A DNA stretch of 55,698 nucleotides from Methanomicrobiales archaeon (GTDB lineage: Archaea; Halobacteriota; Methanomicrobia; Methanomicrobiales; Methanospirillaceae): contig JAPKXQ010000081.1 of assembly GCA_026394765.1 (NCBI GenBank), positions 1-55,698 on the forward strand, given 5' to 3'. The notes beneath the pieces are model-generated. The model saw only the letters and a list, made by a program, of their open reading frames with translations. It was not told the origin of the DNA and searched no databases. Position numbers and translations under genes: made by a program. Shown here one piece after another: positions 38,239 to 51,075 of the stretch (position 1 is the stretch's first letter; each line of letters begins with the position of its first letter).

Positions 38239-39282
38239 TCAGACAAAGAACCTGAACATGACCCAAGCGATAGCGAGCATAATAATTGAGTACTTTAACC
38301 CCGAGACTGCGCTGCTCTCTCCCATCTGACCGGCCACCAGGCCGGAACAGAACCCCTGGATCATTGCGGCATGGGAAAAAATCCTTGTATAAAGGCTGAT
38401 ATCGAGAGATTTTCCGAACTGGCCCGATGCACCGGCAGCAGCTGCTGCTGCGCCAGCAGTCGCCATGGTGGTGAGAAATGTCGAGACAAGGACGAATATC
38501 ACGAAGAGGAAGACAAAGAACGAGATGAGGACGATGATGACGTAGATTATCATGTTGTTCCGCCGCTCCGATTTCATGTTCATCGTCTCATAGGTGTCCA
38601 CCGCTGCCGCACGCAGCACCTCACTCGCGTCACCTCCTGCCTTACTTGCCTTGGCGACGAGGTCAACACTCCGCAGCGCGAGCGGTGTCCCGAGGTTCTG
38701 GCCGAACCGCAGGATGGCGTCGACAAAGGGGACGTTCCAGGACATCTCGTTGTCCATCTTCTTAATGTGAGGTGTGAGTGTACTGTAGTCACCTAATGCT
38801 ACGAGGTGGACCGCGTTTGGAAGTGTCATCCCGCTGTCGTTCATCCCGGCGAGGTCCCTGAAGAAGTTAGGGAGTGCTTCTTCCAGGAGACGGACCCGCC
38901 GAGTCTCAATCAGGTCGGTGATCGTTAAGGGGACCACCATGATCAGGATAGTAAAGACTATGATATCATCAAGAGCAGTTGAGGTGAGAATGACGTAGAT
39001 TCCGTAGCTCTGCACCATCATTCCAGCCCCTAATATGAAGAATAATACTGCAATTGGGGCCGAGACGAGGAGGATGTTTATGGGACTTGCGAAGATGACT
39101 TTCAGAGGATGCCTTGTGACGCGGCCCAGTCCAGTCTCATGGGCCCGGAAGTCCTCGATACGGCGTTCAATCTCTTGTTCTGTGCGATCGACCGGGGTTG
39201 GCGCGGCGCGGTCTGATGCTGGGCCTGTCTCTGTAGCACTGTCACTATTCCCAAACAAGGACTTGAGCCTCTTTACAACCAC
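38239..39282 (-). CDS. Type II/IV secretion F-domain membrane protein, TadC/FlaJ-like (second half)
   Basis: 347 residues: about 85 cytosolic residues, then two transmembrane segments (INILLVSAPIAVLFFILGAG and VFTILIMVVPLTI region), a T2SSF cytosolic domain (LLEEALPNFFRDLAGMNDSG; VDLVAKASKAGGDASEVLRA) and three C-terminal membrane segments including an alanine-rich stretch (TAGAAAAAAGASG). It corresponds to one of the two F-domain units of FlaJ-type platform proteins, here as a separate protein. Genes for the other half and the ATPase lie directly upstream on the same strand. Expected to anchor a pilus or archaellum-like filament in the membrane. Confidence 0.85.
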   Translation of the reverse strand: MVVKRLKSLFGNSDSATETGPASDRAAPTPVDRTEQEIERRIEDFRAHETGLGRVTRHPLKVIFASPINILLVSAPIAVLFFILGAGMMVQSYGIYVILTSTALDDIIVFTILIMVVPLTITDLIETRRVRLLEEALPNFFRDLAGMNDSGMTLPNAVHLVALGDYSTLTPHIKKMDNEMSWNVPFVDAILRFGQNLGTPLALRSVDLVAKASKAGGDASEVLRAAAVDTYETMNMKSERRNNMIIYVIIVLISFFVFLFVIFVLVSTFLTTMATAGAAAAAAGASGQFGKSLDISLYTRIFSHAAMIQGFCSGLVAGQMGESSAVSGLKYSIIMLAIAWVMFRFFV

Positions 39283-39288
39283 GGGTCT

Positions 39289-40212
39289 TCAGCCCTCCGG
39301 TGTCATGGAACTGATGAGGATAACAAACATGATACTCCCAAACGGGATCATGAAGTAGATGATGGCATAGAGGAAGACCGGCTGCGTCTGCCCCCCGATG
39401 ACTGACATAATAGACTGGAGAATGATAAGGAAGAGGGGGCCTGCGACCATTGCAGTGACGTACGACTCAGAGATAAGTCCGAGGGTATCGAGGAACATCT
39501 TCTGCCCCTGGCGGTTCTCAAGTGCGTACTGCTCAGCCTTGGTCCGAAAGTAGACCGTGAGGTTACTCCCACTCGAGATGCTCCCCATCGCACCCTGGAT
39601 GAACTCTTTCATCCGCATACTCGGGGTGGTCATCGAGACGAGCCTGAGGGCCTCTATCAAGTCTCGTCCAAAGAGGTCGATCTCCCGTGTCACATAACGG
39701 GCTTCAACCGCACTCTCCCCGTACATGGGGCTATTTCCAAGCTGGCGAAATATCTCGGCAGGTGCGATCCCGGCAGTTGACATCGCCGTGATATAGTTGA
39801 TGGCATAGGGCAGGGTCGAGTCAATGTTCCTACGCCGGGTCCCTGCGACGACTGAAGGGTAGATGTTAAAGACAAGGAATGTCAGGCCTCCAAAGACTGC
39901 AAAGGAGATGAGTATCGCAAGAAGGGTCCCGATGATGAGTGAGTAGGTTGAGAGTGCCGCGACTGACTCAGGGACTTCCCCGCGGTAGGTGATCATCTCA
40001 GGGATACGAAGGAGGTACGTGAATATCCCAATCATTATTGCAGAAAGGATGGCGACGATTGCAGAGCTCACCAGCGTCGTTGCGAGGTAGACCTCGAAAG
40101 GCGTCATGATCCGTGCAGAAACAAGGTCTTTTCTGAGATTTGCAAACTGTTGCCGGCGTCCCTTTAAGCGGTTTCCAAGGAGGTTGAAGCAGAACCGCTC
40201 GTAACTATTCAT
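39289..40212 (-). CDS. Type II/IV secretion F-domain membrane protein, TadB/FlaJ-like (first half)
   Basis: 307 residues: a basic N-terminus (NLLGNRLKGRRQQFANLRKD), two transmembrane segments (VSSAIVAILSAIMIGIFTYL; LIIGTLLAILISFAVFGGLT), a T2SSF domain (STLPYAINYITAMSTAGIAP; EIDLFGRDLIEALRLVSMTT) and C-terminal membrane helices. It pairs with the downstream half-size protein to make a full platform. It ends seven bases before that gene, and its start overlaps the ATPase stop, as in pilus/secretion operons. Confidence 0.85.
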   Translation of the reverse strand: MNSYERFCFNLLGNRLKGRRQQFANLRKDLVSARIMTPFEVYLATTLVSSAIVAILSAIMIGIFTYLLRIPEMITYRGEVPESVAALSTYSLIIGTLLAILISFAVFGGLTFLVFNIYPSVVAGTRRRNIDSTLPYAINYITAMSTAGIAPAEIFRQLGNSPMYGESAVEARYVTREIDLFGRDLIEALRLVSMTTPSMRMKEFIQGAMGSISSGSNLTVYFRTKAEQYALENRQGQKMFLDTLGLISESYVTAMVAGPLFLIILQSIMSVIGGQTQPVFLYAIIYFMIPFGSIMFVILISSMTPEG

Positions 40213-42508
40213 AGATCTCAGCCCGGACTTTCCGGATGACTACTTCAGGGTCACGATGATAGGATATGAGCATGTGGCTGACATCTTTAAAGTTCCGTAT
40301 CTTTCGGATCCTCATCCACTCTAAAACCTCCTGGCGTCGTTTCAGTTCCTCACGCATCCTCTCCTCGTCCCATCCTTTCATCTCCATGATAGACTCAAGC
40401 ACATAGGACTTTCCTGAGTAAGAGATTGTGTCGGTAGCCTGGTGCCACCGAAAGACCTCGTTTGTGATGAGCTCGTTCGTTCTGGGATCGATATCGAGGA
40501 TCTCAATGATCTGCTTGTTTCTTCGGATCCGCTGGCCAGCAACTCTTGCCTGGATCTGGACACAGACGATATCAAGAGCAGAGAGCATGTTCCTTGGGAC
40601 ATCTAGTGGGGGATTTTCAAGACGGTGGACTGCGCTTGCGACCGAATCGGCGTGCATGGTCGAGTAGGTGACGTGGCCTGTGCTCATCGCCTGGAAGAGA
40701 GTCTGTGCCTCGCGCCCACGGCACTCACCAACGATGATGTACTCAGGGCGCTGCCGCAGTGCTGCCCTCAGCAGCTCGTACATATCTATCTCGCCCTTTC
40801 CTTCCTTATCGAATGATGAGCGGGTAATGCTCGGGATCCAGTTGGGGTGAGGGAGTTTGAGTTCCCTGGTGTCCTCCAGAGTGACGATCTTGGCCAGTGG
40901 TGGGATGAAGAGGGATATTGCATTGAGCGATGTGGTCTTTCCAGAAGCGGTCCCGCCAGCAAAGATGCACGACTTCCCACCCTCTACTGCAAGCCAGAGG
41001 TACGCAACCGCAAGTGGTGTGAAGGTGGCCCACTCGATGAGATCGGTGGGGGTGATAGGTTCGTCCTTGAACTTCCTGATAGTAAATGTAGATCCATGCG
41101 CCGTAACCTCCTGGCCAAGCGTCATCTGGATACGCGAACCATCAGACATGGTGGCATCCAGCATCGGCTCGGCTATGGAGATGTATTTTCCAGACCTCTG
41201 TGCGAGCTTTGTCACATAGGAGTCGAGCTCCTCGGCTCTGGTGAATACCATGGTGGTCTTCATCGACTCATACCGGGAATGGTAGATAAAGATGCTGACA
41301 TTCACCCCGTCGCAGGAGATGTCCTCAATGTACTTGTCGTGCATGATAGGGTCGATAAGGCCGTGACCGAGGAACTCCTTCTCCATGTTATAGCGGATCT
41401 TCGCCCTTTGGGGTGGGGAGAGGACGATGCCAAAGTCTGCGACGATATCATCCGTGGTAGTGCGCAGGGTGGCTTGTGCTATCTCGTTGGTCACCTCTTT
41501 CGTGTTGATCTCGAGCCGCTCGAAGATCCGGGTCTTGAGCTCCTGGAACATGTCGGCTTCAGCTGGGGTGAGGACCGGTTCGAGGACCTCGTATGTGTAC
41601 TCGTGGGTACTGTGGTCATAGATGATCCTGATGTATGCAAAGGGTGGGTTCACCGGGTAGAGGTCGATCTGCTCGATCCCAGTGCGTGGAGGAAAAACAA
41701 GGTTTACGAGGGGGCCATGGAGCGTGGGGTTGTACTCCTCTACCCTGTGTCGTATGACGTTTTTGAGGCTGAACCGTCCAAAAACCCCTCCCTTAGCCCC
41801 ACCTGCATCTCCGATTGACGCAACATCGCTACTGATGGTCTGGATGACAGAGTCTGGGATGCCTTTACGCCAGATAGCATCGATCTCAGGGGGGAGGTCT
41901 GATGCGATGGCACCGGCAAAGGCATCCCTGACCTGGTGGATGTGGATCTCATCTATCTTAAATGTCGCACCTTTTGGCAGGATCACCCCTGATAGGTCGT
42001 TGAGATCGTCTATCAAGACGATCTTCTCCTCTGCCATGGCGTTTCCCTCTGACCACTGGGTCTTAGCTCCCCATTCTTCCTGGTTGGGTGTGGTTGAATG
42101 ATCCATTGGGCCGGGTCCAGGCTTATCCCTGCCACTTGGTGCACCTGTGCGCAGGTCTGTTGTCGATGGCCCGGTGGCTGCCTTGGCCGGGGTTTCCTCA
42201 TGCACGTTAATTTTGGCAGGTCGCCCTTCAGAAGCTCTGTTCTGCTCTGCAAGTTCAGATTCAGGACTGCGAGGCAGGGGATCTTTTCTGACTGGGGGGG
42301 TAGTAGCCCCTGGCGCGGGTGGTGAAAGATCCACCTTTGAGGGTCCATTCGAGATAGTGCCGATGCGGGCCATCAGGTCCTTGAGCTCTTTTCCCGCCTG
42401 CGTGTTCTCTTCTTTAGTCTGGGCTCTCTTTATTACCTCTTTCTGTTTCAGGCCCCGGATAAGGTTGCTGAGGGCCTCTTCCCCCCCGGGTTCCGGTTCT
42501 TCTGTCAT
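40205..42508 (-). CDS. Type II/IV secretion system ATPase (GspE/FlaI family)
   Basis: 767 residues, long for the family. About 200 N-terminal residues are polar and probably disordered, with proline-rich pieces. Then come an N-terminal ATPase subdomain, Walker A GGTASGKTTSLNAISLF (about residues 514-522), the Asp-box VTLEDTRELKLPHPNWIP, Walker B YIIVGECRGREAQTL and the His box AMSTGHVTYSTMHADS. A C-terminal tail of about 100 residues (EMKGWDEERMREELKRRQEV) ends in a helix. It drives filament assembly with the two F-domain proteins encoded downstream. A TATA-like sequence lies at about 42611-42624. The filament is unknown because no pilin gene is nearby. Confidence 0.9.
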   Translation of the reverse strand: MTEEPEPGGEEALSNLIRGLKQKEVIKRAQTKEENTQAGKELKDLMARIGTISNGPSKVDLSPPAPGATTPPVRKDPLPRSPESELAEQNRASEGRPAKINVHEETPAKAATGPSTTDLRTGAPSGRDKPGPGPMDHSTTPNQEEWGAKTQWSEGNAMAEEKIVLIDDLNDLSGVILPKGATFKIDEIHIHQVRDAFAGAIASDLPPEIDAIWRKGIPDSVIQTISSDVASIGDAGGAKGGVFGRFSLKNVIRHRVEEYNPTLHGPLVNLVFPPRTGIEQIDLYPVNPPFAYIRIIYDHSTHEYTYEVLEPVLTPAEADMFQELKTRIFERLEINTKEVTNEIAQATLRTTTDDIVADFGIVLSPPQRAKIRYNMEKEFLGHGLIDPIMHDKYIEDISCDGVNVSIFIYHSRYESMKTTMVFTRAEELDSYVTKLAQRSGKYISIAEPMLDATMSDGSRIQMTLGQEVTAHGSTFTIRKFKDEPITPTDLIEWATFTPLAVAYLWLAVEGGKSCIFAGGTASGKTTSLNAISLFIPPLAKIVTLEDTRELKLPHPNWIPSITRSSFDKEGKGEIDMYELLRAALRQRPEYIIVGECRGREAQTLFQAMSTGHVTYSTMHADSVASAVHRLENPPLDVPRNMLSALDIVCVQIQARVAGQRIRRNKQIIEILDIDPRTNELITNEVFRWHQATDTISYSGKSYVLESIMEMKGWDEERMREELKRRQEVLEWMRIRKIRNFKDVSHMLISYHRDPEVVIRKVRAEIYE

Positions 42509-42649
42509 GGTGCCCCCATCTCCTCGTGTCTCAACCGTATCTCTCCAATCGCTTCAGATCTGCCACCACACCATTGCACCAGAGCGGTGTAGGAGTGGTT
42601 GGGGGATGCGTATAATAAGTATTTGGAGGGGGCAGTATGCACCCGCTTG

Positions 42650-43345
42650 CTATACAGAGGCGCAGTCATCGCTGATGCTTTTGAGTGCAATCCGCACAAG
42701 ACCGAGGTTGGCGTCATTACTTGCGATTACGCACACACAGAGGTCCCCGGCACGAACAACTATCAATTTCCGCTCACCCGTCTCCAGGGTTATCTGGTCG
42801 AGTGTGCCGATCTCCATTTCCAACACTGTTTTCATACCGGCTCTGAACAGTTCCTCTGCGAGGGCCGCGATCTGTTCAAAGTCCCCCTCCCCGACAGACT
42901 TCACGATGTAACCTTCATAGCAGGCCGAGACTGCGATCACCCCGGGCTGGTCTGCGATCCGATTCAGGTGTGCCTCGCTGAGTGCTTTTGGTTCAGATCC
43001 TTCCCGGCTCGAAGAGATGCCAAGCCCCTGTCTTTTGGAGATATCCAATGCAGTGTTGAATTCTTCCTCGGAGTACCGCATGAGTGTGCACTCCGCACCG
43101 CCTGCCACAGACTCCAGTGCTGAGGCATCAGCACGTGCCACCGCCATATCACCCACAAAGACCAAGTCTCTCTCACGATAGAAGGCTCCGTGGATGCACC
43201 CACGGTCTATTAAGAATGCTCCCTCCCCTTGGCCAGTACTGATTCTGAACACCCCTCGAAAGAGGCGGAGTAGTTGGATGAAGACGCTCGGCTGCTGGTT
43301 CCGGATGGTTATGACATAGGTCCCATTAGGCAGTTCAATGAGCAT
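42650..43345 (-). CDS. DUF2226-like plus roadblock/LC7 domain protein
   Basis: 231 residues in two parts. Residues 1-110 look like the archaeal DUF2226 type (IELPNGTYVITIRNQQ; a hydrophobic-GxGE strand FLIDRGCIHGAFYRER; ALESVAGGAECTLMRYSE). Residues 125-231 are a roadblock/LC7-like domain (GVIAVSACYEGYIVKSVGEG; ERKLIVVRAGDLCVCVIASN). Roadblock proteins bind and regulate small GTPases or motor ATPases in bacteria and archaea. ATG 43345 follows a GAGAGAG-rich sequence. It lies upstream of the secretion ATPase on the same strand, 141 bases away. Confidence 0.7.
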   Translation of the reverse strand: MLIELPNGTYVITIRNQQPSVFIQLLRLFRGVFRISTGQGEGAFLIDRGCIHGAFYRERDLVFVGDMAVARADASALESVAGGAECTLMRYSEEEFNTALDISKRQGLGISSSREGSEPKALSEAHLNRIADQPGVIAVSACYEGYIVKSVGEGDFEQIAALAEELFRAGMKTVLEMEIGTLDQITLETGERKLIVVRAGDLCVCVIASNDANLGLVRIALKSISDDCASV

Positions 43346-43470
43346 GCGATTCTCTCTCTTTCCTGCGCTTTTATCGGATGTAACCGCTCTGTCCTATCCT
43401 CGTATGCAGTCTTGAGGAGCAGTGGACTGGGAATATGTCAAAACGACAGATCCGGCAGTATTAAAGGTGA

Positions 43471-43818
43471 TCAGAGTGCTGCAATAAGCCGCTCTCTGTT
43501 CTTCTTCACCTCGTAGCGTATCCTTCCGACAATTGTGTCAGTATCGGTCACAATCGCGAAGAGCTCCTCGTCGGTGAGCGGTAACAGGATGATGGATCCA
43601 TGCTCGAGTTCCACGAGCATCTGGCGGAGCTGACCTTTTCCCAGGGAAGACCCCATCGCCTCTGATGTCCCAAGCCCGGTGGATGCCATGGCACCCAGGG
43701 CATCAATGTCGATCTTTCCTGATATCGCACTCTCAATGACAAATCCATCCCTCCCCACGATGACCGCTGCGGAGAGCCCCTCGATCTTTAAGAATTCCTC
43801 GAGTATCTGCTTGAGCAT
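43471..43818 (-). CDS. Roadblock/LC7 domain protein
   Basis: 115 residues, a complete roadblock/LC7 fold: MLKQILEEFLKIEGLSAAVI, VGRDGFVIESAISGKIDIDA, MVELEHGSIILLPLTDEELF and IVTDTDTIVGRIRYEVKKN. ATG 43818 is chosen over the longer open frame to 43887 because a TATA-like box at 43861-43870 would start transcription near 43840, and GAGGTG precedes this ATG. Related MglB-like proteins regulate Ras-like GTPases and cell polarity; no such GTPase is adjacent, but a MinD-type ATPase is close. Confidence 0.82.
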   Translation of the reverse strand: MLKQILEEFLKIEGLSAAVIVGRDGFVIESAISGKIDIDALGAMASTGLGTSEAMGSSLGKGQLRQMLVELEHGSIILLPLTDEELFAIVTDTDTIVGRIRYEVKKNRERLIAAL

Positions 43819-43860
43819 AGTGGGGCGCACCTCTGTCAGTAGAGTTCCTCTCCCTGGGTG

Positions 43861-43870
43861 AATATAAAGG
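43861..43870 (-). promoter_or_regulatory. TATA-like promoter element of the roadblock gene
   Basis: The minus strand reads CCTTTATATT, 43-52 bases before the chosen ATG. A start site about 25 bases downstream would leave a leader of roughly 20 bases containing GAGGTG. Confidence 0.5.
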
Positions 43871-44095
43871 AGTATGATACGATCCAATGCAATGAGGGGA
43901 TATCTACTAATCTCCTTCTCCCGCTGTCAGATGTCCCGGAATATGTCTGGTAAAGTGGACATTATTTAAGTAAACTTCGCATTCTTTTAACAATATACCT
44001 TTATTTTGAACGAGCCGGGGACTCCCTCAGATGGGAGGTGAAACTGGTGTGGCATATGGATAGGATTATCTGTGCGAGGACCAATCACCTCTTCG

Positions 44096-44740
44096 ATGCA
44101 GGTCCCTCGGGGCACGTTCCTCAGTCTTCGAAAAAACGTTCTCCTCTCGTCAATTTTGGAGGAGACCGCTGCAACAAAGTTTTCCGGGTACTGTGTGGCA
44201 TCGACAGGCGATGAGAGCTTCTCATTTGTGATAAAGGCCGGAAGTATCGTTCTTGCCTCGCATAGGAACCTATCAGGTGATGCCGCAGTTGAGGCAGCAA
44301 TACGGGCACATGGGGCCCTGGTGAATGCGATCTTCTCGGAACTGACGCCATCACAGATCACCCTTGCGATCGAGTTCAATAAACACGCGACTGTCAAGAA
44401 GAGTGACGGTATCTTCTCCCCAGGGAAGGGAACACCTGTTAGCCTGGCGGAGCGGGGTGGGTACAATGTCCCCCTCTCGCGAACTGAACCATTAAACCAG
44501 AAGATACCACTCGCAGGAAGTGGGCAGGGCAGTCTGCAGGGTTCCCCCAGGCACTTGCCGGTCTCTCAAGCAGTGTCAGGTCCCGAAGAGGAAATACCCG
44601 ATGATGCTCTGTATATCCGGGACTTCGAGAACCTGGACCGGCTGGACCTCGATACACTTGCGATGAAGATACGGACCAGTTGCCGGTTGACCGTGGAGAG
44701 CCTGGACCTTGGTCACCTTATCGCTGAGTCTGATAGGTGA
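44096..44740 (+). CDS. DUF2226-like protein
   Basis: 214 residues from ATG 44096 (GTG 44072 is an alternative). Residues 1-105 show the same pattern as the neighbouring DUF2226-like proteins: VPRGTFLSLRKNVLLSSILE, FSGYCVASTGDESFSFVIKA, SIVLASHRNLSGDAAVEAAI. A Gly/Ser-rich variable linker follows and then a short helical end (LDRLDLDTLAMKIRTSCRLT). No enzymatic motif. It overlaps the next gene's open frame and starts a plus-strand run that leads into minD, divergent from the roadblock gene. Confidence 0.65.
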   Translation: MQVPRGTFLSLRKNVLLSSILEETAATKFSGYCVASTGDESFSFVIKAGSIVLASHRNLSGDAAVEAAIRAHGALVNAIFSELTPSQITLAIEFNKHATVKKSDGIFSPGKGTPVSLAERGGYNVPLSRTEPLNQKIPLAGSGQGSLQGSPRHLPVSQAVSGPEEEIPDDALYIRDFENLDRLDLDTLAMKIRTSCRLTVESLDLGHLIAESDR

Positions 44741-44748
44741 GGGCAATA

Positions 44749-45330
44749 ATGGCTGAGAGTAATCTGACTCTGTTATCAGAACCAATCATTCTGATCCTCT
44801 TTGTCGCGTGGGTCCTAGTCCTTATCTGGCTTGCGGGACTCACCCTCTTCCTCATCGAGATCTACCGTAAGATCATAACACTGAGTCGGAAGGATATGAA
44901 GGTGAAAGGGGGAAGAAAAGATACCAGGCGGGAACCCAGGGTGGCAAGCGTTAAAGCAGAGGTTAAAACCCCAGTGGAGGTTACAACCTCGTCTGAACAG
45001 AGTCCGAACGACATCCCGGGTATGGTGGGGAGGGTGAAAGCAAAGTATAACTTAAATGGCCTCACCCTTGCAACCGGGGACGGTCTGGTGATTGCTACTA
45101 CTGAAGATGACGGAGAGAAGATTGCTGCCCGCTACAGCCACCTGTTCCGTCTTGGCAAGATTCCGAATGAGGAGGGAGTCGAGGTATTTGGGACGAATCT
45201 TATGGGGTTGGAAATTATTGGGATCGCTAGGATGACAGGGGAGACCCAATCTTCGTCACTTCATAATATAAAGGGCGATATCGATTCAGCACTTGGATCG
45301 CTGGTTTCTGACAAGGTCACACATATTTAA
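44749..45330 (+). CDS. Membrane-anchored roadblock/LC7-like protein
   Basis: 193 residues. A single N-terminal transmembrane segment (IILILFVAWVLVLIWLAGLT) is followed by a basic linker (residues 45-85). The C-terminal domain of about 100 residues has LNGLTLATGDGLVIATTEDD, YSHLFRLGKIPNEEG and SSLHNIKGDIDSALGSLVSD, resembling a roadblock/LC7 fold. ATG 44749 is preceded by GGTGAGG at six bases. It would place a roadblock domain at the inner membrane face, next to the minD gene. Confidence 0.65.
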   Translation: MAESNLTLLSEPIILILFVAWVLVLIWLAGLTLFLIEIYRKIITLSRKDMKVKGGRKDTRREPRVASVKAEVKTPVEVTTSSEQSPNDIPGMVGRVKAKYNLNGLTLATGDGLVIATTEDDGEKIAARYSHLFRLGKIPNEEGVEVFGTNLMGLEIIGIARMTGETQSSSLHNIKGDIDSALGSLVSDKVTHI

Positions 45331-45371
45331 ATGATTCTGGAGCCAGAGTAATCAGTGCAATTGGGTGGTTG

Positions 45372-46157
45372 ATGGTCCACGTTATCACAGTGGCATCGGG
45401 CAAAGGTGGGACCGGAAAGACCACGGTCACCATTAACCTCGGCACGGTGCTCGCCAGTTACGGGAAAAAGACATTCATAATGGATGCCGATATCGGCATG
45501 GCGAACATTGGCCTAATGATTGGCCTCGAAAACGTACCTGTCACACTTCACGAAGTGCTCGCAGGAACTGCTGGGATCAACGAAGCTATCTATGACGGGC
45601 CCGGGGGGGTCAAAGTCATACCGAGCGGGATCTCACTCCAGGGGTTCCAACAGGCAAATCCCGAGCGATTGAAGGACGTATTAAAGGACCTCGTTGACCG
45701 CTGCGACTTCCTCCTTATAGATGCCCCTGCTGGGATAAGCAGGGATGGGGTTATTCCGCTATCTGTGGCAGACGGGGTTATCCTAGTCGTGAACCCTGAG
45801 CTCTCCTCGATCGTAGATGCCTTAAAGACCAAGATCTTGACCGAGGTGGTCGGAGGCAAGGTGATTGGGGTGATAGTCAATCGGATAGTTGCTGAGCACG
45901 CTGAGCACCTTGCTGAGAAGATGGAGAAGGCACTCGGTGTGGGAGTGATCGGAGTCATCCCCGAGGACCCCTTGGTGAAGAAGGCTGCAGCGTTCAAGGT
46001 ACCTGTGGTGACCAAGTTTCCACTATCAGATTCTTCCAAAGCGATCAAAAGAATTGCTGCCAAGATAGCAGGGAAGACTGTGGAAGAGACTGAAGTTGCA
46101 GAGAAGGACAAGTTCATCGACAAGTTTGCCAAGGCACTCTTCCGGGGCAGGAAATGA
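45372..46157 (+). CDS. MinD/ParA-type P-loop ATPase
   Basis: 261 residues: the deviant Walker A ASGKGGTGKTTVTINLGTVL, FIMDADIGMANIGLMIGLEN, the Walker B LLIDAPAGISRDGVIPLSVA and IGVIPEDPLVKKAAAFKVPV. The C-terminus ends in a positively charged amphipathic-looking helix (FIDKFAKALFRGRK), like the membrane-targeting sequence of MinD. It may position a membrane complex, plausibly the filament machinery encoded nearby; that link is inference. Its stop overlaps a tiny membrane-protein gene. An upstream TTG at 45369 is possible but ATG 45372 is preferred. Confidence 0.9.
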   Translation: MVHVITVASGKGGTGKTTVTINLGTVLASYGKKTFIMDADIGMANIGLMIGLENVPVTLHEVLAGTAGINEAIYDGPGGVKVIPSGISLQGFQQANPERLKDVLKDLVDRCDFLLIDAPAGISRDGVIPLSVADGVILVVNPELSSIVDALKTKILTEVVGGKVIGVIVNRIVAEHAEHLAEKMEKALGVGVIGVIPEDPLVKKAAAFKVPVVTKFPLSDSSKAIKRIAAKIAGKTVEETEVAEKDKFIDKFAKALFRGRK

Positions 46158-46336
46158 CTTTAGAGGTCCTGCTGATCCTGTTTGGGGTAGTCATAGGCAT
46201 CCAGTGTTTCGTCATGTACGTGATGTACGTCCGTATCAGGCAACTCTTAAGTGAGGATTTCGGGGGGCTGGGTGAAGAAGAGGTCGATGCGCTCATAAGG
46301 AGTATCGACCTTTTCAGGGAGCAGAACTTGAAGTAG
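46154..46336 (+). CDS. 60-residue single-pass membrane protein
   Basis: One N-terminal transmembrane segment (VLLILFGVVIGIQCFVMYVM) and a short acidic cytosolic part (EEEVDALIRSIDLFREQ). It overlaps minD by four bases (ATGA), so it is likely translated together with MinD and could be its membrane partner. No family recognised. Confidence 0.6.
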   Translation: MTLEVLLILFGVVIGIQCFVMYVMYVRIRQLLSEDFGGLGEEEVDALIRSIDLFREQNLK

Positions 46337-46878
46337 AAGGGACACTGCTCTCAATCCGATAGTTCATCAGTTCTCTCCTCGGTCTTTGATCTGGAATCAA
46401 ATGGGGTGTCTCACCAGGAACAGCACCGCACCTCATGGCCCTGAACATTACCTTTGTTATGCAGATGAGACGATCCCAGCAAGGAGCCCTGTAGTGCAGT
46501 GGCATGAGACCTTTCCGGTCTGAATACAAGAGGCAGACACTATGGTCTTGTCCAGGAAACCCACATGAGGTAAAGCCTCATCAGTGTTTCCTTCCGTTTT
46601 ATGGGTTGTCTCCTGCGTTACGGACCTGCAAAGGCTTCATATCCTCCATATATGTATAGGGGGATATGTCATAAGGGAAAAACCCTTTCCGGTGTATGCA
46701 GAACCGTTTACCTGGGAATATTTATTTTGGAAATAGGCCTGGTGGGATAGACTGGGGCCTCCAGGTGAGGAGTGAACCTATGGGCAGATCTAGTTTTTGA
46801 TGCATACAGAGCTTATTGTGACTCATGGTCCTGTCTTTGATCTGAACTCTCACTTTATTATAATTAAAATTTTATAAC
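46337..46878. other. 540-base intergenic region with a long hairpin
   Basis: No convincing coding sequence in either direction. It contains a 39-base imperfect inverted repeat at 46554-46592 and a 12-base direct repeat GTCTTTGATCTG at 46382 and 46833. The end next to 46878 is very A+T-rich (46855-46876), which would suit a terminator for the facing gene. Confidence 0.5.
46554..46592. repeat. Inverted repeat (39 bases) able to form a two-part hairpin
   Basis: AGGAAAC pairs with GTTTCCT, and inside it TGAGG pairs with CCTCA around a TAAAG loop. The two five-base joins (CCACA and TCAGT) are mostly unpaired. It may be a structured RNA element or a protein-binding site. No T-run follows, so it is not an obvious terminator. 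Confidence 0.55.
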
Positions 46879-47517
46879 TCATTCCTTGTCCAGTTCGATC
46901 GTCTCATGGTGGTCCCCACCCTGGAAAGTCACAGGGAAATGCCGGATCACCCCTGATGCATCAAGGACCGCGCACTGGTAAGTGCCGAAGAAAAGGCGGA
47001 AAGAGGCTCTTCCGTTTTCAGTTGTGACCCCACTCCCCAGGACACGACCCTCTCTCCTGATAGAGATGTGAATGCCCTGGGCCGGAGTTCCCCTCCTCAT
47101 CACCTCTATGGTGAGGACTGCCATTCCAGGGGTCTGGATCGTACGGGTCGGGATGATGAGCGAAGGGTCGTCTGCCATAAGAGTGGGGACGATCAGGTTT
47201 TTGTCGAGCACCCTGCAGCTCATCGCGACCCGGTCCATTGCAGAAGAGTCAGCGGAGTGAAGCGAGAACGCATCAGCGCCTCGCATAAGTAGGGCTGCCT
47301 TGTTCCCATAGAGTGGGCCCGAAACGTCTGAATAGACTGCCCCTTCAGGTATACCATTCACAAAGATGATGAATGAACTTGAGGAATGCCCACGGGAGAC
47401 TGCAATACCGCTCAGCCGGGACTCCTCACACTTCCTAAGGAGTACATCAAGAGGATCAACCCCTCCTCCGTCCGGAGTGAGTCTGAGGTATTCTTCCAGG
47501 GCATCAGTGAGGCTCAT
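46879..47517 (-). CDS. DUF2226-like N-terminal domain with a beta-sandwich C-terminal domain
   Basis: 212 residues. The N-terminal 115 residues resemble the DUF2226-like proteins encoded nearby: SGIAVSRGHSSSSFIIFVNG, EGAVYSDVSGPLYGNKAALL, ADAFSLHSADSSAMDRVAMS. The C-terminal 80 residues (VLTIEVMRRGTPAQGIHISI; GVTTENGRASFRLFFGTYQC) look like a carboxypeptidase-regulatory/peptidase-associated beta-sandwich. The protein lacks a signal peptide and is probably cytosolic. It lies between minD and the prepilin peptidase, on the opposite strand. Function unknown. Confidence 0.6.
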   Translation of the reverse strand: MSLTDALEEYLRLTPDGGGVDPLDVLLRKCEESRLSGIAVSRGHSSSSFIIFVNGIPEGAVYSDVSGPLYGNKAALLMRGADAFSLHSADSSAMDRVAMSCRVLDKNLIVPTLMADDPSLIIPTRTIQTPGMAVLTIEVMRRGTPAQGIHISIRREGRVLGSGVTTENGRASFRLFFGTYQCAVLDASGVIRHFPVTFQGGDHHETIELDKE

Positions 47518-47980
47518 GGCGAAACGGCCAGCGTGGGTTTTTTTTATCTGGTATATCTCTCCTTCCCCTCTACATAAGAATATTTATTCAAAATGTCCCT
47601 GGTCTGTGATTGGTCCTCTACCGTATGGGAGGAAAAGAGCGTCGCTACACTCCGACATGGTATCTTTCAGATGCATGCATGAGATATTGATAGAGTTCTA
47701 CCAGGGCCTATGATCCATGAACCAATCCACCGCAACTTCATCACGCTTTTTACCTCTATCAGACCTCTGGATCTTTTATGGGCTAATATTTCGCACTGGT
47801 TCCATGAACGGGCTCGCTGAAGAGACCGCATAGGTCTCTTCTCCATCACTGTGGCCTCAATTATTTTGCAATATCTTTTTACCTGGTTGGTATGCAGATC
47901 AGTTGGCCAGTTCCAGAGAGTCAAAGTGCGAAGCCAGATGTTTCGAAGAGTAAAAACCCTCACCCTGGTAACAGTACAAT
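47518..47980. other. Intergenic region upstream of the prepilin peptidase
   Basis: About 460 bases without a supported gene. It holds a perfect 9-bp inverted repeat at 47819-47841 and A+T-rich stretches (47566-47590 and 47863-47880) that may contain promoters for the flanking divergent genes. Confidence 0.45.
47819..47841. repeat. Perfect 9-bp stem hairpin
   Basis: GAAGAGACC, a five-base loop GCATA, and GGTCTCTTC. It lies about 140 bases upstream of the prepilin peptidase GTG. No T-run follows; it could be an RNA hairpin or a symmetric binding site. Confidence 0.6.
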
Positions 47981-48778
47981 GTGCAAATTCCCCTGCTCAT
48001 CTCTACTCTGGCAGTCATAATCACCCTCCTCTATGCGTCCTACCTCGATATACTGGACCGGAGGGTGCCCTTTCGGACCTGGTACCCTATGCTGGTCGTA
48101 GGGGTCCCCTGCGTGGCGGTATGGTATGGGGTCCTCTTCCTGACCGGGTATTATCTCCAGGTAACGGTATTTCTCGCCCTTACCCTCATCTTCTCCTGCC
48201 TCTTTTATGGGATGGCGGCAGCCCGCCTCTTTGGGGGGGCCGATGCATGGGCACTCATATTTTTAAGTGCCTGTATCCCGGCCTATCCGTTCCTTCCGCT
48301 ACTTTGGGCTGATGGTGTGTCACCGCTCGGATTCTTCCCCTTTTCCGTATTGGTAAATGCAGTCCTTATTAACCTCATTGCACCAGTGGGAATCTTTCTA
48401 AAAAACATCATTGAGAAGAACCAGGCACCCATCCCGTACCTCTTCCTGGGATTTCCGGTACAGGGGGACCGGATAGAAAAGTCGTTTGGGTTTGTCATTG
48501 AAGAGGTTATAGACGTTGATGGTGCGCTCACCCGACGGTTCCCGCCCTTTCATGAACTGTTAATCGGGCTGATTCGTGGGAAGCGGAGGATCTATACCAG
48601 GGACTTGCGTGAGAACCCTGAAGAGTATGCCGAGGAGATCTCGCTCTTTCGGAGGGCAGGGACGGTCTGGATCTCATATGGTGTTCCTTTCATTGTGCCC
48701 ATCACTGCCGGGCTCCTTACTGCCCTGATGGTGGGAGATGTATTATACCTGGTAATGCGTAGCATAGCAGGGTTCTGA
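47981..48778 (+). CDS. Archaeal prepilin peptidase (A24, FlaK/EppA type)
   Basis: Membrane aspartyl protease that removes class III signal peptides from archaeal pilins or archaellins. 265 residues with about six transmembrane segments. The first catalytic Asp lies in [16 protein letters not shown] and the second in the GxHyD-type motif [13 protein letters not shown] soluble insertion of roughly 110 residues ([20 protein letters not shown] to [20 protein letters not shown]) precedes the last helix pair, as in FlaK/EppA. The start is GTG 47981. It follows the secretion genes at a distance and would process their pilins. HisI starts three bases after its stop. Confidence 0.85.
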
Positions 48779-49173: not shown

Positions 49174-51075
49174 TTGCAACTGGTCCCAGATACAAGTGTC
49201 GTAATAGATGGCCGTATCACCTCTTTGATACAATCCGGCGAATATCGGGGGGCAACCATAATCATACCGGAAGCGGTTGTGGCGGAATTGGAGTCACAGG
49301 CAAACCAGGGGAGGGAGATCGGTTTTAGTGGCCTCACTGAACTCCAGAACCTCTGCAGGCTTGCCGAAGAAGGTGCCATAGAGATCAAGTTCGTAGGTTC
49401 TAGACCGAGCCTGGAGCAGGTGAAGCTTGCGAGCGGGGGAGAGATCGATGCTCTCATCCGGCAGGCGGCAATCGAACACGGGGCGATATTCATCACAAGC
49501 GATGTCGTCCAGGCTGAGGTTGGACGGGCAAAGGGCCTCGATGTGACGTACCTTAGGCCTCAGATTGATGAGTTCACTCCTCTTGGTATAGACCAGTTCT
49601 TTGACGAGCACACCATCGCGGTGTATCTCAAGGAGCGGGTTCCACCCTTTGCAAAGAAAGGGTCTGTTAAGGAGATGCAGCTGGTCCAGATACGCGACCA
49701 GCTGCTGACTGACCAGGAGATCAGGAGCCTAGCCCAGGAGATCCTTGAACGTGCGAAGCGTGATCCTGATGGGTTTATCGAGGTCGAGCGGCGTGGCGTT
49801 ACCATTGTCCAGATAGGGTCGATGCGTATAGCGATCACAAGGAGGCCGTTCTCAGACGGGATGGAGATCACAGCGATCCGCCCGATCGTGCATATCACAC
49901 TTGAGGACTACACGAGGGCGAATGTCATCAAGACGAGGATCTCGGGTGAGAAGCGCGGCCTCCTTATTGCCGGGCCACCTGGTTCTGGAAAGACAACACT
50001 TGCTCAGAGCATCGCGATCTATCTCGCCGATAGTGGTTTTGTGGTAAAGACCATGGAGACACCACGGGGTCTGCAGGTCCCTGACCACATCACCCAGTAC
50101 ACCTCCCTTGACGGGAGTATGCGCAACACCGCCGATGTCCTGATGCTTGTCAGGCCCGATTTTGTCATCTTTGATGAACTACGCAAGAACGAGGACTTCT
50201 CGGTATTCTCAGACATGCGCCTCGCCGGTATTGGAATGGTAGGAGTCGTACATGCGATAGGTCCCCACGATGCCCTCCAGCGGTTCTCTGACCGGGTGGA
50301 CCTTGGGGTCCTTCCCCAGGTCATCACAACGATAATCTTTGTGGAGCGAGGCGAGATCATCCGCATCTATGATGTCTCATTCACGATCAAGGTTCCGGAA
50401 GTGATGTCCGGGGACCTCCACCCTCGCCCAGTTACCGTGGTGAAGGATTACGAGTCAGGGGAGACCTTATTTGAACTGTTCAAGTTTGAAGGTGAGACGA
50501 TTGTGATGCCGATGATCTCTCACGATGCCCATCCCGTACCTCTCACCCCTCCTCCTCTCACATCACCCCTCCCACCCCTTCAGAGTATGCGACCCGAAGA
50601 ACCCCCCTCCCCGTGGAAAGTGAGCGAACGGGAGATCCAGATGGAACTTGGGCGCTATACGCAGGGGCCTGTCGACGTGAAAGTAATTTCTGACGCAAAA
50701 GCAGTGGTATATATCGAGGATCGGGATGTGCCGGCCGCTATCGGGAAAGGTGGTAAGAACATTGCCGCCATCGTCAACCGCGTCGGGATCGGGATCGATA
50801 TACGGCCCAGAAGTGAGATGGAGAGAGCAGCAACAGTTACGGAAGAGGAGCAGGTACCTGGCACAGTGAAGATCAGGACTGATAAGAAGCAGCTCTCCCT
50901 CTACTGTCCCGAACTCGCGGGCAAGATCGTGGATGTCTTTGCAGGAAAAGAGTACCTCTTCACAGCGACGGTGAGTGATGGGGGAGAGATCGCTCTTGCG
51001 AAGAACAGTACGATCGCACAGGAGATGATCAAGCGGACCAACCAGGGCGAGGCTGTCCGCATGCGACCGGTCTGA
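49174..51075 (+). CDS. PIN-domain/AAA-type ATPase with KH domain
   Basis: 633 residues with three parts. An N-terminal PIN domain (VPDTSVVIDGRITSLI with the first acidic residue; GGEIDALIRQAAIEHGAIFI; TSD) is expected to bind metal and cleave RNA. A central PilT-type P-loop ATPase follows (LLIAGPPGSGKTTLAQSIAI; FVIFDELRKNEDFSVFSDMR). A KH-type RNA-binding domain comes near residues 515-560 (AAIGKGGKNIAAIVNRVGIG), then a C-terminal extension. The family is widespread in Archaea; the exact substrate is unknown. TTG at 49174 is the start that fits the PIN N-terminus, preceded by GGCGGTGAT; no ATG is available. It lies 24 bases after hisI. Confidence 0.88.
   Translation: MQLVPDTSVVIDGRITSLIQSGEYRGATIIIPEAVVAELESQANQGREIGFSGLTELQNLCRLAEEGAIEIKFVGSRPSLEQVKLASGGEIDALIRQAAIEHGAIFITSDVVQAEVGRAKGLDVTYLRPQIDEFTPLGIDQFFDEHTIAVYLKERVPPFAKKGSVKEMQLVQIRDQLLTDQEIRSLAQEILERAKRDPDGFIEVERRGVTIVQIGSMRIAITRRPFSDGMEITAIRPIVHITLEDYTRANVIKTRISGEKRGLLIAGPPGSGKTTLAQSIAIYLADSGFVVKTMETPRGLQVPDHITQYTSLDGSMRNTADVLMLVRPDFVIFDELRKNEDFSVFSDMRLAGIGMVGVVHAIGPHDALQRFSDRVDLGVLPQVITTIIFVERGEIIRIYDVSFTIKVPEVMSGDLHPRPVTVVKDYESGETLFELFKFEGETIVMPMISHDAHPVPLTPPPLTSPLPPLQSMRPEEPPSPWKVSEREIQMELGRYTQGPVDVKVISDAKAVVYIEDRDVPAAIGKGGKNIAAIVNRVGIGIDIRPRSEMERAATVTEEEQVPGTVKIRTDKKQLSLYCPELAGKIVDVFAGKEYLFTATVSDGGEIALAKNSTIAQEMIKRTNQGEAVRMRPV

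Follow-up and report, generated by a model that had tools for sequence, protein, structure and literature searches.

A conserved MinD, roadblock and DUF4388-like gene module at a type IV pilus motor locus of Methanomicrobiales

The locus and its closest described counterparts

Euryarchaeal type IV pili (T4P) of clade 2, the PilB3/AfGspE type, are described as having an AfGspE-like ATPase, a pair of TadC-like genes and pilins encoded in trans, as is normal for euryarchaeal T4P, and links to MinD (arCOG00589) and to roadblock proteins (arCOG02603) have already been reported for them (Makarova et al. 2016, PMC4858521). A locus with these features lies on contig JAPKXQ010000081.1 of a methane-producing archaeon of the order Methanomicrobiales (assembly GCA_026394765.1; contig C101 of a genome that is 79% complete), and the whole stretch analysed, 55,698 nucleotides, is called the window below. 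What sets it apart from the described clade 2 pili is a conserved module, placed among the motor genes or next to them, that consists of MinD, DUF4388-like proteins, a membrane protein of 60 residues and two or three proteins of the roadblock type. The genes in question are, in order along the window:

38239–39282, minus strand: F2, half-size platform protein with one T2SSF domain, TadB-like half (PF00482, 1e-13)
39289–40212, minus strand: F1, half-size platform protein with one T2SSF domain, TadC-like half (PF00482, 1.5e-10)
40205–42508, minus strand: T4P assembly ATPase, 767 amino acids, with a variable N-terminal extension (PF00437, E = 1e-33)
42650–43345, minus strand: RB1, predicted DUF4388-like N-terminal domain and C-terminal roadblock/LC7 domain (Robl_LC7, 1.6e-5, 24.9 bits, cut-off 23)
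43471–43887, minus strand: RB2, stand-alone roadblock/LC7 protein (Robl_LC7, 7.6e-15, 54.9 bits, cut-off 23)
44072–44740, plus strand: predicted DUF4388-like protein with a linker and conserved C-terminal helices (PF14332 in relatives, family alignment, AlphaFold2 (AF2) model)
44737–45330, plus strand: RB3, one transmembrane segment and a tentative C-terminal roadblock-like domain (Robl_LC7, 19.2 bits, cut-off 23)
45369–46157, plus strand: archaeal MinD, 262 amino acids, deviant Walker A motif KGGTGKTT (TIGR01969, 7.9e-94, 313.5 bits, cut-off 201.75)
46154–46336, plus strand: 60-residue protein with one transmembrane helix and a short cytoplasmic helix (read from the sequence)
46879–47517, minus strand: predicted DUF4388-like N-terminal domain and transthyretin-like beta-sandwich (Pfam matches of relatives, AF2, Foldseek)
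47981–48778, plus strand: class III prepilin peptidase, A24 and Arc_PepC_II (PF06847, 1.9e-17; PF01478, 1.2e-7)

Other described machines resemble the locus in part. The Tad/Epd-like pili (TadA, TadB, TadC, TadV, TadZ) likewise have a platform made of two single-T2SSF proteins, a peptidase and a MinD-family partner, and the division of the platform into an N-terminal (F1) and a C-terminal half (F2) is that described for TadC and TadB by Denise et al. 2019 (PMC6668835), where TadZ is given as the polar hub of Tad pili; unlike in Tad, a secretin was not seen among the genes of the locus. Roadblock proteins are also connected with T4P control in the MglA-MglB-RomR polarity module of Myxococcus, but no Ras/MglA gene was found in the locus studied here. 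In Synechocystis, where PATAN/DUF4388-type domains possibly touch a T4P motor ATPase, PATAN-domain PixE has been reported to bind the motor ATPase PilB1 (PMC7690835); the archaeal proteins differ in having roadblock or transthyretin-like domains instead of receiver domains, and the domain relationship is weak. Archaeal MinD proteins are known to affect the positioning of surface machines from Haloferax MinD2 and MinD4, MinD2 affecting both assembly and positioning of the archaellum and having a co-transcribed downstream gene (HVO_0596), the deletion of which had no phenotype (PMC11588486). The Haloferax effects concern the archaellum and chemotaxis, without a link to a T4P operon, and the small MinD partners are alike in position.

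Recurrence of the module in Methanomicrobiales

Conservation of the neighbourhood was assessed in 73 loci, the window included, each with a peptidase, the ATPase and F1; the sample is non-random, because many loci were drawn by search with the window ATPase. Named relatives of the ATPase locus were all Methanomicrobiales or Euryarchaeota records, mostly of Methanoregula, Methanolinea and Methanoculleus. Six Methanomicrobiales families were compared, for which the labels f1 to f5 are used; the window groups with f1 relatives, and f3 and f4 are two families other than its own. The protein families represented in the window at 44072–44740 and 46879–47517 are called here 44072 and 46879. Between peptidase and ATPase, the 46879 family was present in 73 of 73 loci, RB2-type roadblocks in 48, MinD together with the 44072 family in 42 and RB3 in 30.

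The arrangement of these genes followed a few layouts. In the window, RB2, RB1, the secretion ATPase, F1 and F2 follow one another in transcription order on the minus strand, and 44072, RB3, MinD and the 60-residue protein run divergently from RB2 on the plus strand, with 46879 (minus) and the peptidase (plus) beyond; a divergent cassette placed between 46879 and RB2-RB1-ATPase is the layout of f1 generally. The f3/f4-type layout is co-directional (RB2-RB1-44072-MinD-46879-ATPase-F1-F2), found in nine loci and, with swapped order, in one more. Seven loci had the f2-type layout RB2-RB1-46879-ATPase, four of them with an extra divergent roadblock pair, and 24 further loci, many from Methanoculleus, had 46879-ATPase-F1-F2 only. 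A second divergent RB2-RB1 pair stands opposite the first at the pilus loci L117, L134, L136 and L210.

The 44072 family adjoined RB3 in all 29 RB3 loci fetched from other genomes, with MinD within a short stretch in 28 of them, and a small transmembrane protein directly followed 37 of the 87 MinD genes checked. By hand reading, the distance from RB3 to the ATPase is about 4 kb or less in each of the 19 f1 genomes that have RB3, and never so small in f2 to f5 genomes. Of about 70 genomes that encode the 44072 family, are at least 90% complete and were common to both samples drawn, 69 have the ATPase orthologue as well (a hand count, uncorrected for relatedness). In the MinD tree the operonic f3/f4 copies formed one clade (support 100/99) and the f1 copies grouped with stand-alone cassettes; linkage of MinD to the pilus genes therefore probably arose more than once, with limited support for the order of deeper branches. 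The RB1 and RB2 trees had long branches and were used loosely only.

Since the gene set recurs across families, chance clustering was rejected. An earlier reading of the window from its letters alone (hereafter the sequence-only reading) had linked regulatory and pilus genes in the window, and this link proved to extend far beyond the source genome, both in the counts above and in the co-directional f3/f4 operons. That reading had also named separation of these genes in related genomes as evidence that would count against it: they do lie apart in Methanoculleus and part of f2, which bears out that condition in part.

In f5 genomes and some of f2 (L168, 7797–14809; likewise L154–L158, L167 and L173), genes of the module are intermixed with those of a [NiFe]-hydrogenase cluster that comprises genes for a maturation protease, a ferredoxin, an Oxidored_q6 subunit, the large subunit and a 145-residue protein without a Pfam match.

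Proteins of the module and of the motor

MinD scored well above the cut-off of the archaeal MinD model TIGR01969 and ends in an amphipathic helix of the membrane-targeting type (DKFIDKFAKALFRGRK) that is conserved in relatives, the two features that define an archaeal MinD. It has no N-terminal extension and, unlike the MinD-family partner of Tad pili, no N-terminal receiver-like domain; on the CpaE_hom_Actino model it reached 39.5 bits against a cut-off of 154.45, thus passing the archaeal MinD model and not the CpaE model. The ATG of the 60-residue protein overlaps the MinD stop codon, so that the two genes are translationally coupled.

Three roadblock/LC7-type proteins had been proposed from the sequence, and RB1 and RB2 were retained above the Pfam cut-off. 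RB2, the likely true start of which is at about 43818 (MLKQILEEF), also matched the MglB model (1.1e-5), below its cut-off. RB3 (likely start 44749) is a roadblock protein only tentatively, because its match is sub-threshold and the window protein alone matched the roadblock model among the 29 family members scanned; profile comparison of RB3 with RB1 detected no relationship, and the assignment therefore draws on one sub-threshold match and on context. A Ras-like GTPase was sought in the 79%-complete source genome, in which no PF00071 match was found and PF08477 gave a weak match only, and in the g16 genomes carrying the module (96–98% complete), which had no PF00071 or PF08477 match, although a divergent GTPase could escape detection. 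With the cognate GTPase not found in the g16 genomes, an MglAB-type system was rejected, and the roadblock proteins here seem, from these profile searches, to work without a Ras-type GTPase.

The sequence-only reading had further listed up to three DUF2226-like proteins. DUF2226 was not matched by window proteins at E up to 10 and did not figure among the matches, at E up to 1, of 81 members of the 44072 and 46879 families, and this identity was discarded; the domain is instead probably DUF4388-like (PF14332), DUF4388 being a domain that we take to be the same as PATAN. Of 41 sequences in the 44072 family, 20 matched PF14332 (best 2e-4), as did, weakly and at the N-terminus, just 3 of 40 in the 46879 family (best 0.015); neither window protein matched itself. 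The N-terminus of RB1 aligned with both families (hhalign E = 9.6e-6 and 1.7e-6), direct comparison of the 44072 and 46879 profiles was weak (27% probability), and the predicted structures of the two share the order helix-strand-strand-strand-helix-strand-helix in this domain. We conclude, with moderate confidence, that the RB1 N-terminus, 44072 and 46879 all carry a DUF4388-like domain. In the AF2 model of 44072 (likely start 44096, MQVPRGTF), the domain occupies residues 1–100 at a predicted local distance difference test (pLDDT) score of about 97, and a fold search against the PDB returned nothing significant. The 46879 model (pLDDT 86.6) has a C-terminal domain that is transthyretin-like by Foldseek (best E = 1e-6), and a carboxypeptidase-regulatory/transthyretin-like domain (CarboxypepD_reg) was matched there in 14 of 40 family members. 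In some genomes (L163, 7838–8839; L170, 9486–10652), proteins of the 44072 family have the N-terminal domain twice in tandem, with two LPRG/VPRG-type starts per protein.

The core that these genes accompany is, on sequence grounds, a predicted non-archaellum euryarchaeal adhesion-type pilus of an already described kind, with pilins in trans. The ATPase and the two PF00482 platform genes are adjacent on the same strand, as is expected of the secretion ATPase and platform of non-archaellum T4P, and the joint PF01478 and PF06847 matches are those of a class III prepilin peptidase of archaeal T4P. F1 matched the N-terminal half of ArlJ (NF004704, positions 35–249 of 555, E = 1.7e-24) and F2 its C-terminal half (NF004703, positions 237–448 of 525). 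Among PDB structures the ATPase was closest to Archaeoglobus AfGspE (3e-131, 442 bits), followed by Sulfolobus FlaI (290 bits) and by CpaF (154 bits), a score comparison that sets it apart from Tad. It reached 415 bits on the FlaI family model, under the cut-off of 550, and 156.6 bits on TIGR03819, for which the cut-off is 373.15. Tad membership was accordingly rejected: the platform is split as in Tad, but neither an ATPase of the TadA/CpaF clade nor a TadZ/CpaE protein was found.

A class III signal scan of the window yielded no pilin; the same scan detected three archaellins and three pilin-like proteins in the rest of the genome, all outside the window, and matches to PF07790 (Pilin_N) above cut-off on contigs C37 and C28 indicate that class III pilins are available in the genome. 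Extended to related loci, about 1.7 Mb in total, the scan again gave no pilin once hits that overlap with F1, F2 or the peptidase had been removed. Archaellum genes were likewise not found in the window: the archaellins are on contig C81, and the archaellum site on contig C79 combines an ATPase and a FlaJ-like platform gene with CheF, CheY and CheB. The location of archaellins and Che-linked genes on other contigs and the score of the ATPase below the FlaI cut-off exclude an archaellum.

The sequence-only reading was thus sound in describing a complete pilus-type core (ATPase, two half-size T2SSF proteins and prepilin peptidase), a MinD-type ATPase with a coupled 60-residue membrane protein, and a lack of archaellum genes and pilins nearby. 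Its proposal of a distinct filament was not supported, since the ATPase is closest to AfGspE and two platform genes without local pilins, as well as the MinD and roadblock links, had been published (PMC4858521).

A third ATPase/platform pair lies on contig C67 (L005, 8018–11640), where a further T4P ATPase and an unsplit 642-residue platform protein are encoded beside apparent A-type ATPase genes. The archaellin contig C81 also carries a ParA-like gene (L174, 14403–15197), a distant relative of the window MinD. Two genes from the prepilin peptidase, a PIN-domain-ATPase-like gene of the window (49174–51075) matches the T2SSE model (E = 1.1e-7); in many of the related loci, too, its neighbours are HisI and the peptidase.

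Possible roles of the module

We lean, with slightly better than even confidence, towards control by the MinD-roadblock-DUF4388 module of where or when the euryarchaeal T4P motor works. From the Walker A motif and tail of MinD, its small transmembrane partner, Haloferax MinD2 and the PixE-PilB1 pair, we infer a MinD-anchored roadblock/DUF4388 scaffold on the motor. In such a scheme, MinD-ATP would dimerize and bind the membrane through its C-terminal amphipathic helix, aided by the coupled 60-residue membrane protein, and the membrane-anchored, roadblock-like RB3 would form, together with the soluble roadblock proteins, a scaffold around MinD. The DUF4388-like domains of RB1, 44072 and 46879 would connect this scaffold to the ATPase or platform, so that pili would be assembled only where, or only when, the module permits it. 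What is observed covers the genes present, their domain families and conserved linkage, the co-directional layout elsewhere and the conservation of the MinD tail. The homology of MinD and of the roadblock proteins suggests a spatial role; contacts between the proteins, control by position and not just by switching on and off, and service chiefly to the pilus would all be part of this proposal.

Several observations weigh against this reading. The sequence link behind the parallel with PATAN regulators is weak. The six-gene module is remote from the pilus genes in Methanoculleus and in part of f2, where it neighbours a [NiFe]-hydrogenase; behind the cassette come, in f5 and likewise part of f2, genes for the [NiFe]-hydrogenase large subunit, the Oxidored_q6 subunit and a ferredoxin, and then RB2-RB1. 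In f3/f4 genomes 44072 and MinD occur twice, once within the pilus operon and once in a cassette close to RNA polymerase genes. The ATPase occurs without the 44072 family in genera g13 and g22, among others, which shows that the pilus can do without the module. The word 'dedicated' in the sequence-only reading is too strong, and a regulator serving T4P alone was rejected in view of the separate position of the module in Methanoculleus and other genomes.

The module might instead organize the cell or transmit signals independently of the pilus, serving more than one client or different ones (for example a hydrogenase, the archaellum or chemosensory arrays), and its adjacency to the pilus genes in some families would then be a genomic convenience. 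Four findings speak for this possibility: the six genes remain united next to the hydrogenase (f5, part of f2); a cassette has RNA polymerase genes and a CheY-like receiver-domain gene close by (f3/f4, part of f2); the T4P core occurs without the module; and the window MinD is the only close MinD in its genome. We nevertheless regard it as unlikely, if worth serious attention, given that T4P genes are linked with MinD or roadblocks in four of the six families, in three layouts and several times co-directionally with the motor, and that the module family almost never occurs without the ATPase orthologue. A related and equally doubtful idea is that of a client-swapping, GTPase-independent, transferable archaeal positioning device, which would have been coupled to the T4P motor in certain families and, in others, to a different membrane-associated machine, for instance a hydrogenase.

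A more conservative explanation takes MinD as the TadZ/FleN-type assembly factor expected for an archaeal T4P, with roadblock and DUF4388 proteins as minor accessories and nothing beyond published T4P. It would agree with the prediction of arCOG00589 MinD for clade 2 T4P and the presence of roadblock arCOG02603 in many T4P loci (PMC4858521), and with the connection of TadZ to arCOG00589 (PMC6668835), but a conserved unit of DUF4388 proteins, a membrane roadblock-like protein and a 60-residue protein was not found in the searched passages of these papers, and we consider this explanation quite improbable. Non-filament secretion powered by the locus would account for the lack of pilins in the window and in the related loci. 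It is very improbable, as the motor comes with a class III prepilin peptidase, Pilin_N proteins are encoded elsewhere in the genome, and Haloferax PilB3-type loci do build pili without local pilins (PMC4858521).

The kind of pilus itself and the links of MinD and roadblock proteins to archaeal T4P are already published. In the open-access literature that was searched, no precedent came up for the conserved module, its operonic arrangement, the presence of DUF4388-like domains in it or its other setting beside a hydrogenase, and these are taken to be the new elements. How archaea choose the site at which a pilus is built is a little-studied question, for which the conserved MinD, the roadblock scaffold and the possible motor-facing domain set supply named candidates. 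The module also allows a direct comparison with TadZ of the bacterial Tad pili, whose presumed ancestors are archaeal pili, and offers a case of roadblock proteins apparently operating without a Ras-like GTPase.

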